Source of the DNA: Candidatus Hydrogenedentes bacterium CG07_land_8_20_14_0_80_42_17
GTDB lineage: Bacteria; UBA8481
DNA length: 10,282 nt
Assembly: GCA_002780065.1 (NCBI GenBank)
Contig: PEWQ01000174.1
Span: 1-10,282 of the forward strand
Direction: 5' to 3'
The notes beneath the pieces are model-generated. The model saw nothing but the letters and a program-made list of their open reading frames with translations. It ran no database searches and was not told where the DNA came from. Both the position numbers and the translations under genes were made by a program. Below are positions 3,936 through 9,348 of the stretch, piece by piece; the stretch's first letter is position 1, and the number at the start of each line of letters is the position of its first letter.

Positions 3936-3941
3936 ATGCTC

Positions 3942-6443
3942 GTGAAAGCTACTAAGGATCAGATTCTTTTAACCGATGCGCAATTAAAGATGGAACTTGA
4001 GCGTTGTGAATTCTGTGAGGAGAAACCGTGCCGTGACGGTTGTCCGTGCAATTGTTCTCCTGCGGATTTTATAATGGCCGCGCGTGGAATGACAGCAACG
4101 GATATTCAGCGCTCTGCGGCGCTCGTTATGCGGGAGAATCCGCTCGGAGGTATTTGCGGCGCAGTTTGTCCTGACCGTTTCTGCATGGCGAAATGTTCTC
4201 ACAAACTTGTAGACGGTCCTATTAATATTCCGCAAGTTCAGGCTTCCGTAGTTGAACGAGCAAAACAAGACGGTGGAATTCCTGAATATTTGAAAGCAAA
4301 AAAGAACGGCAAGAAGGTTGCTGTTATTGGCTCAGGACCAACAGGCTTAGCCGCCGCTTCCACATTGGCTCAAAAAGGGTATTCAGTTGTGATCTACGAT
4401 GAAAACAAAGAGCCCGGCGGAGCATTGAGACTAATTCCTGAAGTTAGGCTCGACAGAAAGATATTAAATACAGATATCGATTTCATTCTTTCACTTGGCG
4501 ATATTAAACTCAAAATGAACACTCGGATTAAAAACCCCGCAGAATTATTGAAGAAAGGTTTTCACGCTGTTCTTGTTGCTGAAGGTCTTTGGAATCCTAT
4601 TCTTTCCGGCATCCCAAATCAGGAATTAGCAATAGATAATATCCGATACCTCTCCAGTCCAAAGCAATTTAATTTGAAAGGCAAAAGGGTTGCAGTTATC
4701 GGCGGCGGAGCAGTAGCGACCGATTGCGCAACTACTGCTATTCACAACGGAGCAAAAAGAGTAGAAATGTTTGCCCTTGAAAAGCTCGGTGAGATGCCTC
4801 TTACAGGACGCGAATTGAATGAGCTTGTTCAGGAAGGCATTGAAGTGAACGGCAGAATACGCGTCACTGAAATTATTGCGCGCGATAAGAAGATTATCGG
4901 TTTGAAAACGAATAAGATTACATTGCCTCTGAATGTAAAATTCAATCTCAGAGATATCTCCGACGTTTCCGGTTCAGAGCAGATTCGTATGGATATCGAC
5001 TCGGTAATCATTGCTATTGGAAATAGGCCTGCGATGCGATTTCAGGAAACGGGAAAGATTTTCGTTGCAGGTGATGCCGCCAACGGTCCTACAACTGTAG
5101 TTGAAGCGAGCGCCGCAGGAAAGAATGTTGCGATTAGAATTGATGCTGCACTTAATTCTAAACCTCAGCCGAAAATTGAAAAACAGACAAAGAGTTATCA
5201 TCAACTCGATGGATATGTAAAAAAACCTGTATCGCTTGAAACAATATTCTTTGGCAGAAAGATTCGTTCACCATTTCTGCTTTCTGCGGCGCCGCCGTCT
5301 GACGGCTATGATCAGATGTCAAAAGCCTACAAAGCAGGTTGGGCGGGCGGAATAATGAAGACCTCTTTTGATAATGTTTCGATTCATATTCCAGGCGAAT
5401 ACATGCACGTTTTCGAGTCAAATACTTATGGCAATTGCGACAACGTATCTGGCCATCCGCTCAATCGAGTCTGCAAAGAGATAAAAAAATTGGTCAAGGA
5501 ATATCCGGATCGTCTGACTATGGCATCGACCGGCGGACCTGTCACAGGGAATGACGAGAGCGACAAGAAAGGTTGGCAGTCAAATACCAAAAAGCTTCAA
5601 AATGCCGGTGCGATGGCAATTGAATACTCTTTGTCTTGTCCTCAAGGCGGAGACGGAACTGAAGGCGATATAGTTTCTCAGAATGCGGCATTGACAGCGA
5701 AGATAATCGGGTGGGTCATGGAAGTTTCTAATCCTGACATTCCTAAAATATTTAAATTGACCTCAGCAGTCACTTCTATTGTTCCGATTGCCCGCGCAAT
5801 AAAAGAGGTCTTCAAAAAATATCCGCACAAGAAAGCTGGAATAACTCTTGCCAACACCTTCCCGACGATGTTTTTCAGAAAGATCGAGAAGAAGGAATGG
5901 GAAGAAGGAATTGTAGTAGGAATGAGCGGCGAAGGAGTTCTACCAATAAGTTATCTTACTCTTGCAACTGTTGCGCCTGTCGGGCTCGAGATTTCCGGTA
6001 ACGGCGGCGTTATGACTTACAAACATGCCGCGGACTTTTTGTCGCTCGGAGTTAATTCCGTTCAAGTCTGCACAGTTGCAACAAAATACGGTTACGGAAT
6101 CATCGACGAACTTGAAAATGGATTAAGCTATCTAATGGAGGAGCGCGGAATTAAGTCGATCTCAAAACTTCGCGGTATTGCTCTGCCGAATCCGATACGG
6201 GGATTCATGGAGCTTTCTCCTGTCAAAAAGATTTCGGAATACAACTACGAGTTCTGCACGAAATGCGGAAATTGTTCAAGGTGCCCATATCAAGCAATTT
6301 CGCTAACGGGTGAAGACGGATATCCGGTGACAGATCCGTCAAAATGCATTGGCTGTTCGATATGCGCTCAGAAGTGCTTCGCGAGTGCCATTTACATGAG
6401 AAAGCGGACTAAACGCGAGACTGCAATGCTGAAGGAAGATTGA
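3942..6443 (+). CDS. Fused PreT/PreA-type flavin–Fe-S reductase (dihydropyrimidine dehydrogenase-like)
   Basis: The 833-residue protein has the architecture of dihydropyrimidine dehydrogenase and is about the summed length of bacterial PreT plus PreA. Order: N-terminal Fe-S domain with Cys22, 25, 30, 34 (C-x2-C-x4-C-x3-C) and Cys72, 76, 81, 85; FAD/NAD(P) domain with VAVIGSGPTG (126-135), VAVIGGGA (250-257) and VAGDAANGPTT (375-385); FMN barrel from about 430 to 750; C-terminal ferredoxin. The barrel has SLSCPQ with catalytic-type Cys566, and ANT (637-639). Electrons would pass from NAD(P)H through FAD and Fe-S to FMN and an N-heterocycle. Oddities: the residue matching substrate-binding Asn of NxSCP is Ser563, and the first ferredoxin motif has Cys spacing 2-2-2 (772, 775, 778, 781). 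It leads the operon ending in ssnA. The family is sure, the substrate is not. Confidence 0.85.
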   Translation: MKATKDQILLTDAQLKMELERCEFCEEKPCRDGCPCNCSPADFIMAARGMTATDIQRSAALVMRENPLGGICGAVCPDRFCMAKCSHKLVDGPINIPQVQASVVERAKQDGGIPEYLKAKKNGKKVAVIGSGPTGLAAASTLAQKGYSVVIYDENKEPGGALRLIPEVRLDRKILNTDIDFILSLGDIKLKMNTRIKNPAELLKKGFHAVLVAEGLWNPILSGIPNQELAIDNIRYLSSPKQFNLKGKRVAVIGGGAVATDCATTAIHNGAKRVEMFALEKLGEMPLTGRELNELVQEGIEVNGRIRVTEIIARDKKIIGLKTNKITLPLNVKFNLRDISDVSGSEQIRMDIDSVIIAIGNRPAMRFQETGKIFVAGDAANGPTTVVEASAAGKNVAIRIDAALNSKPQPKIEKQTKSYHQLDGYVKKPVSLETIFFGRKIRSPFLLSAAPPSDGYDQMSKAYKAGWAGGIMKTSFDNVSIHIPGEYMHVFESNTYGNCDNVSGHPLNRVCKEIKKLVKEYPDRLTMASTGGPVTGNDESDKKGWQSNTKKLQNAGAMAIEYSLSCPQGGDGTEGDIVSQNAALTAKIIGWVMEVSNPDIPKIFKLTSAVTSIVPIARAIKEVFKKYPHKKAGITLANTFPTMFFRKIEKKEWEEGIVVGMSGEGVLPISYLTLATVAPVGLEISGNGGVMTYKHAADFLSLGVNSVQVCTVATKYGYGIIDELENGLSYLMEERGIKSISKLRGIALPNPIRGFMELSPVKKISEYNYEFCTKCGNCSRCPYQAISLTGEDGYPVTDPSKCIGCSICAQKCFASAIYMRKRTKRETAMLKED

Positions 6444-6452
6444 GGAGGGGAA

Positions 6453-6773
6453 ATGAAAAATAGCAACGGAAGATTAGCAGCAATTGCAAAAAGTTTTGAT
6501 AGACGGTTTGTTGAAATCGACGCAAATATCGAGGATATTAAACAAGATTATTTTGATTTCCAAAAGCGGACTATAGAATTTCAAAAGCAGACTATGGAAT
6601 TTCAAAAGCAGACCAATAAACAATTTGATTTTTTAATCGAAAAAACATCTGCACTTGGCAGAACAATGAAAGGATTGCAGAAAGATTCAAAAAATTTACT
6701 GGAGTATATTGAATTTGTTGACCAAGATATTCAAAATCACAAGAAATCTAAAAAACCACATATTTACGAATAA
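6453..6773 (+). CDS. Small coiled-coil protein of unknown function
   Basis: The 106-residue product has no family I recognise. It is rich in Lys, Gln, Asp and Glu, has no Cys, signal peptide or membrane segment, and is predicted almost wholly helical. Residues 35-55 are three near-identical heptads (DFQKRTI, EFQKQTM, EFQKQTN), and hydrophobic spacing continues through QFDFLIEKTSALG, so a rod-like oligomeric coiled coil is likely. A strong AGGAGGGG lies four bases before the ATG. The gap to the reductase stop is 9 bases and to ssnA 12, so it is clearly part of this operon. It might be a scaffold or oligomerisation partner, but that is only inference from position. Start and reading frame are well supported by the ribosome binding site and spacing. 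Confidence 0.75.
   Translation: MKNSNGRLAAIAKSFDRRFVEIDANIEDIKQDYFDFQKRTIEFQKQTMEFQKQTNKQFDFLIEKTSALGRTMKGLQKDSKNLLEYIEFVDQDIQNHKKSKKPHIYE
6555..6617 (+). repeat. Three tandem 21-bp repeats encoding heptads
   Basis: Units 6555-6575, 6576-6596 and 6597-6617 are in frame. The last two begin GAATTTCAAAAGCAGAC and are identical over 17 bases; the first differs at a few positions. A weakly related stretch (AAACAATTTGATTTT) follows. The high nucleotide identity suggests recent slippage or duplication, so copy number may vary between strains. Confidence 0.85.
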
Positions 6774-6785
6774 CAGGAGGAAAAG

Positions 6786-8114
6786 ATGAATAAGACAATT
6801 CTGATTAAAAATGGGCGTGTCGTCACAGGCACAGGCAAAGTATTTGAAAACGGAGCGGTGCTCATCGAAGGCACGAAGATAAAAAATGTTTATTCAAAGA
6901 CTCCGGCAATTAAGGCTGACAAAGTTATAGACGCGAAGAACAAAGTCGTAATGCCTGGACTTATCTGTGCTCATCATCATCTATACTCCACGATGGCCCG
7001 CGGAATGTGCCCTCCTGGAGCACCTGCGAAGAATTTCATGGAGGTGCTTCAACGATTATGGTGGAGACTTGATTATTCTTTGAGCCGTGAAGATGTTCTT
7101 CTTTCTGCTCTCGTTCCACTTGTCGAATGTATAAAGAATGGAACAACCACAATCATTGATCATCATGCTTCGCCTTCATGCCGCGACGGTTCGCTCGAAA
7201 TTTTGCGCGGTGCGTGTGAAGATGCCGGAATACGAGCAAGCCTTTGCTACGAGGTTTCGGACAGAAATGTTAAGGGCGGCGGATTATTCGAGAGTGAAAG
7301 ATTTCTTGCTGAGCTTCAGCGCTCGCCATCGGAGCTCGTTACTGGTTTAGTAGGGCTTCATGCTAGTTTTACTGTGTCGGACGATTCCGTAAAACAATGC
7401 GTAAAAATCGCGAATAAATACGGAGTAGGATGCCATATTCATGTTGCAGAGGACAAATCCGACAGAGAGCATTGCATTAAGAAATACAAGGTTCCTGTAG
7501 TAAAGAGACTTCATAAACTCGGATTGCTTGGAAAGAATTCAATACTTGTTCATTGCATCTGGATTGACGACTCCGAGATGGCATTAATTAAAAAATCCGA
7601 CACTATTGTCGTTCACAATCCTGAATCGAATATGAACAATGCGGTTGGAGTTTCGAAAGCATTGAAGATGATGCAGAAGGGAATTCTTGTTGGGCTTGGC
7701 ACTGACGGTATGTCCTCCGATATGCTTTCTCAGATGCGGTGTGCATATTTATTGCACAGACTGGACAATCACGATCCGCGCGTTGCTTTCTGTGAGGCGC
7801 CTCAGATGCTTTTAGAAAACAACCGTGAGATAATAAAGCGAGTTATGGGAATAGATGTTGGAGTTATAGAAAAAGGAAAACCTGCTGATGTCATCGTAGT
7901 TGATTACAATCCTCCAACGCCATTCGGAGCGGACAATTTCCTTGGGCACTTTATCTTTGGAATGGTCGATGCAACAGTCGACACCACAATAGTAAACGGC
8001 AGAATTCTGATGGAGGGCAAAAAAGTTAAATCGCTTAATGTAGAAAAAATAATGGAGCGATGCCGCGAATCTGCGCCGAAGATGTGGAAAAGGCTCAGAG
8101 AACGTTTTGCGTAA
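6786..8114 (+). CDS. ssnA: SsnA-type aminohydrolase (amidohydrolase superfamily)
   Basis: The 442-residue protein has the length and marker segments of the SsnA aminohydrolases: VMPGLICAHHHLYSTMARG, LWWRLDYSLS, IDHHASP, SNMNNAVG, YNPPTP with ADNFLGH, and a terminal MWKRL. The metal site of a mononuclear amidohydrolase is complete: His63 and His65 (HxH), His219 with Glu222 in HIHVAE, His256, and Asp307 in LGTDG. It should hydrolyse a C-N bond of a ring or amidine substrate in the cytoplasm. In enterobacteria and anaerobes ssnA sits among genes linked to purine or uric acid breakdown (ygfK, hyuA, xdhD), which fits the reductase upstream here. AGGAGG lies five bases before the ATG. The exact substrate is unproven. 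A related deaminase of the same superfamily is the alternative. Confidence 0.85.
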   Translation: MNKTILIKNGRVVTGTGKVFENGAVLIEGTKIKNVYSKTPAIKADKVIDAKNKVVMPGLICAHHHLYSTMARGMCPPGAPAKNFMEVLQRLWWRLDYSLSREDVLLSALVPLVECIKNGTTTIIDHHASPSCRDGSLEILRGACEDAGIRASLCYEVSDRNVKGGGLFESERFLAELQRSPSELVTGLVGLHASFTVSDDSVKQCVKIANKYGVGCHIHVAEDKSDREHCIKKYKVPVVKRLHKLGLLGKNSILVHCIWIDDSEMALIKKSDTIVVHNPESNMNNAVGVSKALKMMQKGILVGLGTDGMSSDMLSQMRCAYLLHRLDNHDPRVAFCEAPQMLLENNREIIKRVMGIDVGVIEKGKPADVIVVDYNPPTPFGADNFLGHFIFGMVDATVDTTIVNGRILMEGKKVKSLNVEKIMERCRESAPKMWKRLRERFA

Positions 8115-8138
8115 AATAATGAAGAAAGTTAATTTTGC

Positions 8139-8170
8139 GAAAGAGCAGGCTGAAACCTGCTCTTTCTTCT
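8139..8170 (+). terminator. Hairpin terminator after ssnA
   Basis: GAAAGAGCAGG (8139-8149) pairs perfectly with CCTGCTCTTTC (8156-8166) around a 6-base loop, followed by TTCT. The 11-bp stem is strong, but the U-run is short, so termination may be partial. It ends only 12 bases before the tyrS start, so it may also act as a leader structure for tyrS. Confidence 0.65.
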
Positions 8171-8178
8171 AAAACATT

Positions 8179-9348
8179 ATGATTGCAAATGCAAAAAAAA
8201 TATTACTGCGCGGTGTTGATGAAGTCATTGGCGACCTCGATTCTAAATTAAAAGAGGGGAGACCTTTGAGAATTAAAGCCGGGTTCGACCCTACTGCGCC
8301 TGATCTGCACTTGGGGCATACTGTACTCTTGCGAAAACTCAGACAGTTTCAGGATCTCGGGCACAAGGTTTTCTTTTTGATCGGAGACTTCACTGCTATG
8401 ATTGGCGACCCGAGCGGACGTAATGAAACTCGGCCTCCGTTAACTCGCGAAGCAGTTCTTGTTAATGCTCAAACTTACAAAGACCAGGTCTTTAAAATTC
8501 TTGATCCTCTGAAAACCGAAGTGGTTTTCAATTCGTCGTGGCTGGAACCTCTTGGAGCCGCAGGAATATTGAAACTGGCAAGTTATCGCACTGTCGCTCG
8601 GATGCTTGAAAGAGATGATTTCAAAGAAAGGTTCAAGAACAATATAGAAATTACTATTACTGAATTTTTGTATCCTCTGCTTCAAGGCTACGATTCTGTT
8701 GCATTGAATGCCGATGTCGAGATTGGAGGTTCGGATCAGCGCTTCAATTTATTGATGGGAAGAAAATTGCAGGAGATAGAGAATCAACCGCCTCAAGTTG
8801 TCGTTATGCTTCCGCTTATTGAAGGGCTTGACGGAGTCAGAAAGATGTCTAAATCTTACGGCAACGCAATTGGAATTCTTGAAAACCCTGACAATATTTT
8901 CGGGAAAATAATGTCTATTCCAGATTCTCTTATATGGAGATATATGATTCTTCTTACATCAATTTCTGAAGACGAAATAGAAGAGATGAAGAACTCGGCG
9001 ATAAATCCTCGAGATGCAAAAGCCAGACTTGCAGCAGAAATTGTTTCAATGTTGCACGACCGCAGTGCGGCGGAAAATGCATCGATTAGATTCGATTCCA
9101 TATTCAAACGTAAAGAAAAGCCCGAGGAAATTTCAGAAATTATTCCTCTTCAAGGCGAGGATCTTCCGTCGTTGCTATTGCGGGCAAAAACAGTTTCATC
9201 GAAGAGCGAAGCGCGGCGTTTGATTGAACAAGGCGGAGTAAGAGTAGAAAATGATAGCGGTTGGACTAAAATTACAGCAACATATTCATTCAAAAGAGGA
9301 GATGTCTTGAAGGTCGGCAAGAAAGGGCAGTTCTTGCGTATTGGGTAA
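8179..9348 (+). CDS. tyrS: Tyrosyl-tRNA synthetase
   Basis: This class I synthetase charges tRNA(Tyr). The 389-residue protein shows [16 protein letters not shown] with the HIGH-type HLGH at 44-47, [14 protein letters not shown] (68-81), the tyrosine-pocket segments [10 protein letters not shown] and GGSDQRFN (Asp185, Gln186), and KMSKS at 222-226. A C-terminal S4 RNA-binding domain (about 335-389) contains [16 protein letters not shown]. It belongs to the longer TyrRS type with HLGH and KMSKS. The start is firm because a stop codon (TAA 8170-8172) lies three codons upstream in frame; the N-terminus is slightly shorter than usual. No Shine-Dalgarno sequence is visible, and a hairpin ends 12 bases before the ATG. 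The biotin ligase gene follows after 15 bases. Confidence 0.96.

Follow-up and report, generated by a model that had tools for sequence, protein, structure and literature searches.

An operon of Candidatus Hydrogenedentes bacterium CG07_land_8_20_14_0_80_42_17 probably encodes the enzymes that reductively dearomatize the ring and first open it in the anaerobic breakdown of uric acid, as judged from its sequence and from comparative genomics. The window, i.e. the whole stretch of DNA analysed, is one entire contig (C121, 10 282 bases) of an assembly that comprises 2.39 Mb in 207 contigs and is 87% complete. The first gene of the operon (3942..6443, + strand) encodes a fused reductase of 833 amino acids (aa) with the architecture of dihydropyrimidine dehydrogenase (DPD), which we propose to be an NAD(P)H-linked yanthine (2,8-dioxopurine) reductase that stands in for YgfK or UacX and supplies dihydro-yanthine to SsnA, a 442-aa aminohydrolase encoded by the last gene (6786..8114, + strand). 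This assignment draws on the genes themselves, the domain order and predicted fold of the reductase, its recurring pairing with SsnA, the company of further pathway genes, and a zero overlap with YgfK in one phylum.

The relevant chemistry was established by Li et al. 2025 (PMC12507026), who reconstituted the uric-acid pathway and found that XdhD makes yanthine, which is converted in vitro to ureidomethyl-hydantoin by SsnA plus either YgfK (with NADH) or UacX (with an artificial donor), and only when reductase and SsnA are both present. In Clostridioides difficile YgfK is replaced by UacX, a PydA homologue; Chloroflexota were reported to be without YgfK and UacX, and an F420 enzyme was proposed there instead (Li et al. 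2025, PMC12507026). The field of anaerobic uric-acid degradation has been reviewed (Percudani 2025, PMC12990295).

Recurrence of the reductase–ssnA pair

The set searched included just two genomes from the phylum of the window, so wider phyla were surveyed. In a single scan, a species-level collection of genomes yielded 35 relatives of the reductase at 53–66% identity, distributed over Elusimicrobiota, Chloroflexota, Acidobacteriota, Planctomycetota, Myxococcota, Ignavibacteriota, Lentisphaerae/Kiritimatiellae, Cloacimonadota, Aminicenantes and others. Thirty loci from other genomes are long enough for a judgement, and 16 of these have SsnA no more than 400 bp from the reductase. The pairing is thus not confined to the window's genome; the preliminary description had named such confinement as a result that would refute its reading. 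Three more Elusimicrobia loci have ssnA 1.0–4.6 kb downstream on the same strand, with a transposase-like gene in one of the gaps. A whole-genome search placed an SsnA relative somewhere in 32 of the 35 reductase-bearing genomes; the identities span 37–61%, so a few of these matches may be paralogues. The distances among the reductases track those among the SsnA proteins (Mantel r 0.88, p 1e-4, n 18). Among 301 Chloroflexota genomes, all three that have the reductase carry it beside an SsnA 58–59% identical to that of the window, and only 1 of the 298 reductase-less genomes has an SsnA of the window's type.

The pair also keeps the company of other uric-acid genes. Whole operons with the order reductase–ssnA–ygeY–xdhA–xdhC–ygeW, further genes being interspersed, are present in an Ignavibacteriae locus (L015) and in L021, and ygeX adjoins the reductase in three loci (L003, L017 and L035). 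Across 38 reductase genomes, YgeW was detected in 21, YgeY in 27 and YgeX in 10.

Architecture, fold and phylogeny of the reductase

Family searches called Fer4_20, Pyr_redox_2, DHO_dh and 4Fe-4S domains in the reductase, which correspond to an N-terminal 4Fe-4S domain, an FAD/NAD(P)H domain, an FMN barrel and a C-terminal 4Fe-4S domain, i.e. the domain order of DPD. The AlphaFold2 model (pLDDT 87.6, pTM 0.84) superposes on pig DPD across 788 residues (3.5 Å), and DPD is its top Foldseek match. The protein nevertheless scores under the NCBIfam cut-off for PreA (NF006183, 209 vs 335 bits), under that for YgfK (TIGR03315, 147 vs 835 bits, with the profile matched at 442–778 only) and under the curated cut-offs of GltD-type families. 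In the phylogenetic tree the reductase family forms its own clade, separate from PreA/DPD, with a support of 100/100 and a long branch. Sequence identity of the family to PreA/DPD is 27–33%, and to a Cetobacterium UacX candidate 22–24%; this candidate, the sole UacX relative compared and 24% identical to the window reductase, sits on a very long branch that makes the placement of UacX in the tree unreliable.

Conservation at the substrate pocket is selective. In pig DPD the loop cysteine, Cys671, is the proton donor, and Asn609, Asn668, Asn736 and Thr737 are what we take to be the pyrimidine-binding residues, Asn668 contacting uracil. In the alignment, the cysteine and the Asn609 and Asn736 positions are kept in 32/32 family members, and the Thr737 position is Thr in 25 of them and Ser in the other 7. 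Asn668, an Asn in all five PreA/DPD sequences compared, is Ser in every one of the 32 members, and Glu611 is likewise Asp throughout. With the DPD fold retained, these two replacements fit a changed ring substrate.

SsnA and the pathway genes of the same genome

The window SsnA clears both NCBIfam cut-offs for its family (NF005540, 543 vs 444 bits; TIGR03314, 513 vs 455.5 bits), is called as Amidohydro_1 and conserves the metal-ligand motifs HxH, HIH, H and D. It is the proposed ring-opening enzyme for the reduced purine.

As the window is one whole contig, pathway genes located elsewhere are invisible in it, and a genome-wide search was hence performed. The genome encodes the set for the reductive uric-acid pathway, i.e. 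XdhD, YgeW, YgeY, hydantoinase and SsnA. A full XdhD on contig C123 passes TIGR03313 (1284 vs 1102 bits), is 55% identical to E. coli XdhD and is flanked by genes for a YgfM-like subunit and a MocA-like protein; it keeps the Glu606 position, at which Li et al. link the Glu to yanthine formation (PMC12507026). Contig C112 carries ygeY–ygeW, C2 carbamate kinase and C19 a TIGR02033 hydantoinase (dihydropyrimidinase). Contig C100 encodes SelD, YqeC and YqeB, all above cut-offs and constituting the selenium-dependent molybdenum hydroxylase set, together with an 8-oxoguanine deaminase, an enzyme whose product is uric acid. The preliminary description had called for a search for partner genes elsewhere in the genome; hyuA, ygeW, ygeY and xdhD/ygfM, as well as carbamate kinase, are indeed present, and ygeX was not recovered.

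Two further SsnA or SsnA-like proteins were observed. A second SsnA-like protein of the window's genome (contig C91; L046 7348–8727), 34% identical to the window SsnA and under the SsnA cut-offs, adjoins glyA and has LANC for LVHC, with Asn replacing a conserved metal-ligand His; it is possibly a changed or inactive paralogue. G001, the other genome of the window's phylum, encodes an SsnA with glyA as its neighbour, YgeY (72%) and a YgeW-like protein, and no DPD-like reductase was matched there at the threshold used.

Proposed mechanism

A XdhD–YgfM-type molybdenum hydroxylase, encoded elsewhere in the genome, would reduce uric acid to yanthine. The FAD of the reductase would then accept a hydride from NAD(P)H and pass electrons via the 4Fe-4S clusters to FMN, where the pyrimidine ring of yanthine would be reduced with the conserved loop cysteine serving as proton donor. 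Both yanthine as the substrate and the cofactor use of the reductase are what we infer here. Immediate hydrolysis of the dihydro product by SsnA may draw an unfavourable reduction forward, which would account for the tight coupling of the reductase and ssnA genes, and the ureido products would subsequently be handled by the hydantoinase, by YgeW with carbamate kinase, and by YgeY.

Relation to YgfK and alternative readings

The distribution of YgfK is consistent with such a role. Its N-domain was not found in the window's genome (assembly 87% complete) and occurs in just 1 of 38 reductase-bearing genomes, that of a Myxococcales bacterium (G019). In a survey of 340 Elusimicrobiota genomes, for which the best two candidates per genome were scored and the counts of YgeW and SsnA are lower bounds, the reductase was present in 76 and YgfK in 16, with zero overlap. 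At least 45 of these genomes have YgeW, at least 41 of them together with the reductase (Fisher p 3e-27, from lower-bound counts and with shared ancestry ignored). The preliminary description had suggested that SsnA may be served by the fused enzyme in place of YgfK as ring reductase. The pairing, the pathway genes in the same genome and the absence of YgfK overlap in Elusimicrobiota all favour this suggestion, for which comparative genomics gives good support and which agrees with the known chemistry.

Several observations weigh against it. For the zero overlap in Elusimicrobiota the chance probability is only modestly low (P 0.016 assuming independence), the genomes behind this value being non-independent and represented by their best two candidates. 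YgfK, SsnA and a DPD-like reductase are encoded next to one another at a Myxococcales locus (L018, 4068–12484); both reductase types can therefore coexist, and the substitution is not a strict one-to-one exchange. Among 39 genomes, only the window's genome and G019 have XdhD at the TIGR03313 level, the others containing more distant Mo-hydroxylases. Chloroflexota reductase genomes are without YgeW at the threshold used, and the window's genome, whose assembly is only 87% complete, yielded no YgeX.

The deficits in XdhD and YgeW, together with the coexistence in L018, would suit the view that the pair acts on another oxidized purine or related bicyclic ring (e.g. xanthine or another oxopurine) in place of yanthine, and given these deficits the ring entering the reductase may vary by lineage. 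The window's genome, however, has an XdhD with the yanthine-linked Glu plus YgeW and YgeY, and the XdhD of C. difficile operates in the same pathway although it shares only 26% identity with that of E. coli (Li et al., PMC12507026), so that a weak XdhD score is compatible with yanthine; we consider a different ring rather improbable for the pair. Similarly doubtful is a broader proposal in which the DPD-like reductase and a matched SsnA subclade would process a non-yanthine oxopurine across uncultured phyla, in a route distinct from the gut uric-acid pathway. An ordinary dihydropyrimidine dehydrogenase for uracil and thymine, with ssnA adjacent by coincidence, is an unlikely identity for the fused enzyme. 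Such an enzyme would share the domain order and fold of pig DPD and the retained Cys671, Asn609, Asn736 and (in 25/32) Thr737 positions, and would suit both the TIGR02033 dihydropyrimidinase of the window's genome and the dihydropyrimidinase/hydantoinase-type gene directly before the reductase in four Elusimicrobia loci (L001, L002, L006 and L014), but a hydantoinase has a place in the uric-acid pathway too. The sub-threshold PreA score, the separate long-branched clade and the uniform loss of an Asn668 that PreA/DPD sequences keep argue against it, as do the recurrent partners ssnA, ygeW and ygeY, which are markers of uric-acid degradation. The N-terminal half of the reductase also resembles electron-transfer flavoproteins of the NfnI, GltD and AegA type, and this resemblance, with the presence of YgfK in L018, could indicate an electron-supplying or accessory flavoenzyme acting beside YgfK or XdhD; the intact acid loop of the FMN barrel, the substrate-side Asn residues and the absence of YgfK from 37/38 reductase genomes render that role very unlikely.

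Comparison with known reductases and significance

The window reductase resembles UacX of C. difficile, and the probable Cetobacterium UacX (L070:16015–17115), in having a PreA/PydA-related FMN barrel with 4Fe-4S beside ssnA, in its location within a uric-acid gene set and in its proposed substitution for YgfK. It differs in being a full-length fusion with Fer4_20 and Pyr_redox_2, whereas UacX, which has no FAD/NAD(P)H domain, presumably uses ferredoxin, and in keeping the DPD cysteine loop that the Cetobacterium candidate, at 24% identity, does not. Like E. coli YgfK, it is a large reductase with iron-sulfur clusters and with sites for FAD and FMN, encoded next to ssnA, although the domain order differs and the N-terminal domain of YgfK is absent. 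Mammalian DPD and bacterial PreT–PreA match it in domain order, predicted overall fold and the Cys671, Asn609 and Asn736 positions; the identity of ∼30%, the separate clade, the replaced Asn668 and Glu611 and a context of purine rather than pyrimidine breakdown set it apart.

The idea of a YgfK replacement is largely anticipated by UacX (Li et al. 2025) and by the uncharacterized PreA-like clade X1, found with hyuA, ygeW, ygeY, ssnA, xdhABC and yqeA (Barba et al. 2013, PMC4016543). The window reductase is likewise a PreA relative in the company of ssnA, hyuA, ygeW, ygeY and xdh; X1 is compared here by description only, its members and architecture being unnamed, and may correspond to UacX, to the window family or to both. 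Li et al. 2025 tagged neighbour genes by PF01180 (PMC12507026), and DPD-architecture reductases would therefore have counted as UacX. In the searchable literature, outside which most subscription journals lie, no paper was found to describe a reductase of DPD architecture that is paired with SsnA. The general idea is thus anticipated, and the specific enzyme type, the pocket change and the distribution appear to be new. The enzyme would represent a third type of ring reductase for the anaerobic uric-acid pathway, a single polypeptide drawing directly on NAD(P)H, and would carry the pathway into at least ten phyla, most of them uncultured; one of these is Chloroflexota, from which YgfK and UacX were reported absent. 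The reductase with SsnA may serve as a sequence marker from which anaerobic purine degradation could be predicted in environmental genomes. The family also provides a natural experiment on the adaptation of the DPD fold from uracil to a purine.

Gene layout and neighbouring genes

The three-gene operon described previously is borne out by the sequence, with gaps of 9 bases (reductase to the second gene) and 12 bases (second gene to ssnA), ribosome-binding sites and a terminal hairpin. Shine-Dalgarno-like sites precede all three starts (TTGGAGGATGCTC, GAGGAGGGGAA and AGGAGGAAAAG, respectively). GTG 3942, 6 bases downstream of GGAGG, is the most likely start of the reductase; the alternative ATG at 3936 abuts the GGAGG. 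The hairpin 3′ of ssnA (approximately 8139..8166, + strand) is a possible terminator with an 11-bp stem (region 8112–8180, −19 kcal/mol, z −4.3), followed by a tail, TTCTTCT, of only modest U-richness, and was not among the calls of a terminator scan. A sigma-70 promoter scan of the region around the operon yielded no excess of sites over shuffled sequence.

The middle gene (6453..6773, + strand) encodes a 106-aa coiled-coil-like protein with FQKQT repeats, which matched no family in domain and NCBIfam profile searches, is single-copy in the window's genome and has no homologue in the 35 reductase loci; other loci have unrelated genes in the corresponding gap. Its earlier listing as an operon component does not extend to a conserved part of the system; it is lineage-specific and was rejected as such a part. 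An upstream nitroreductase, with no strong homologue in the surveyed neighbourhoods, was also rejected.

Other genes recur beside the pair in particular lineages. An aspartate-decarboxylase-like gene also precedes the reductase in the four Elusimicrobia loci with the hydantoinase-type gene, and in L001, L002 and L006 genes for LarA-like, FAD-oxidase and fumarase proteins follow ssnA. In five Chloroflexota loci (L004, L005, L019, L026 and L027) the F420 biosynthesis gene for CofD, in some with that for CofC, lies upstream of reductase–ssnA, an arrangement possibly relevant to the F420 enzyme that was proposed for this phylum. In an Aminicenantes locus (L033, 1350–4775), three tandem genes for YgeW-like carbamoyltransferases and then one for carbamate kinase lie upstream of the reductase.

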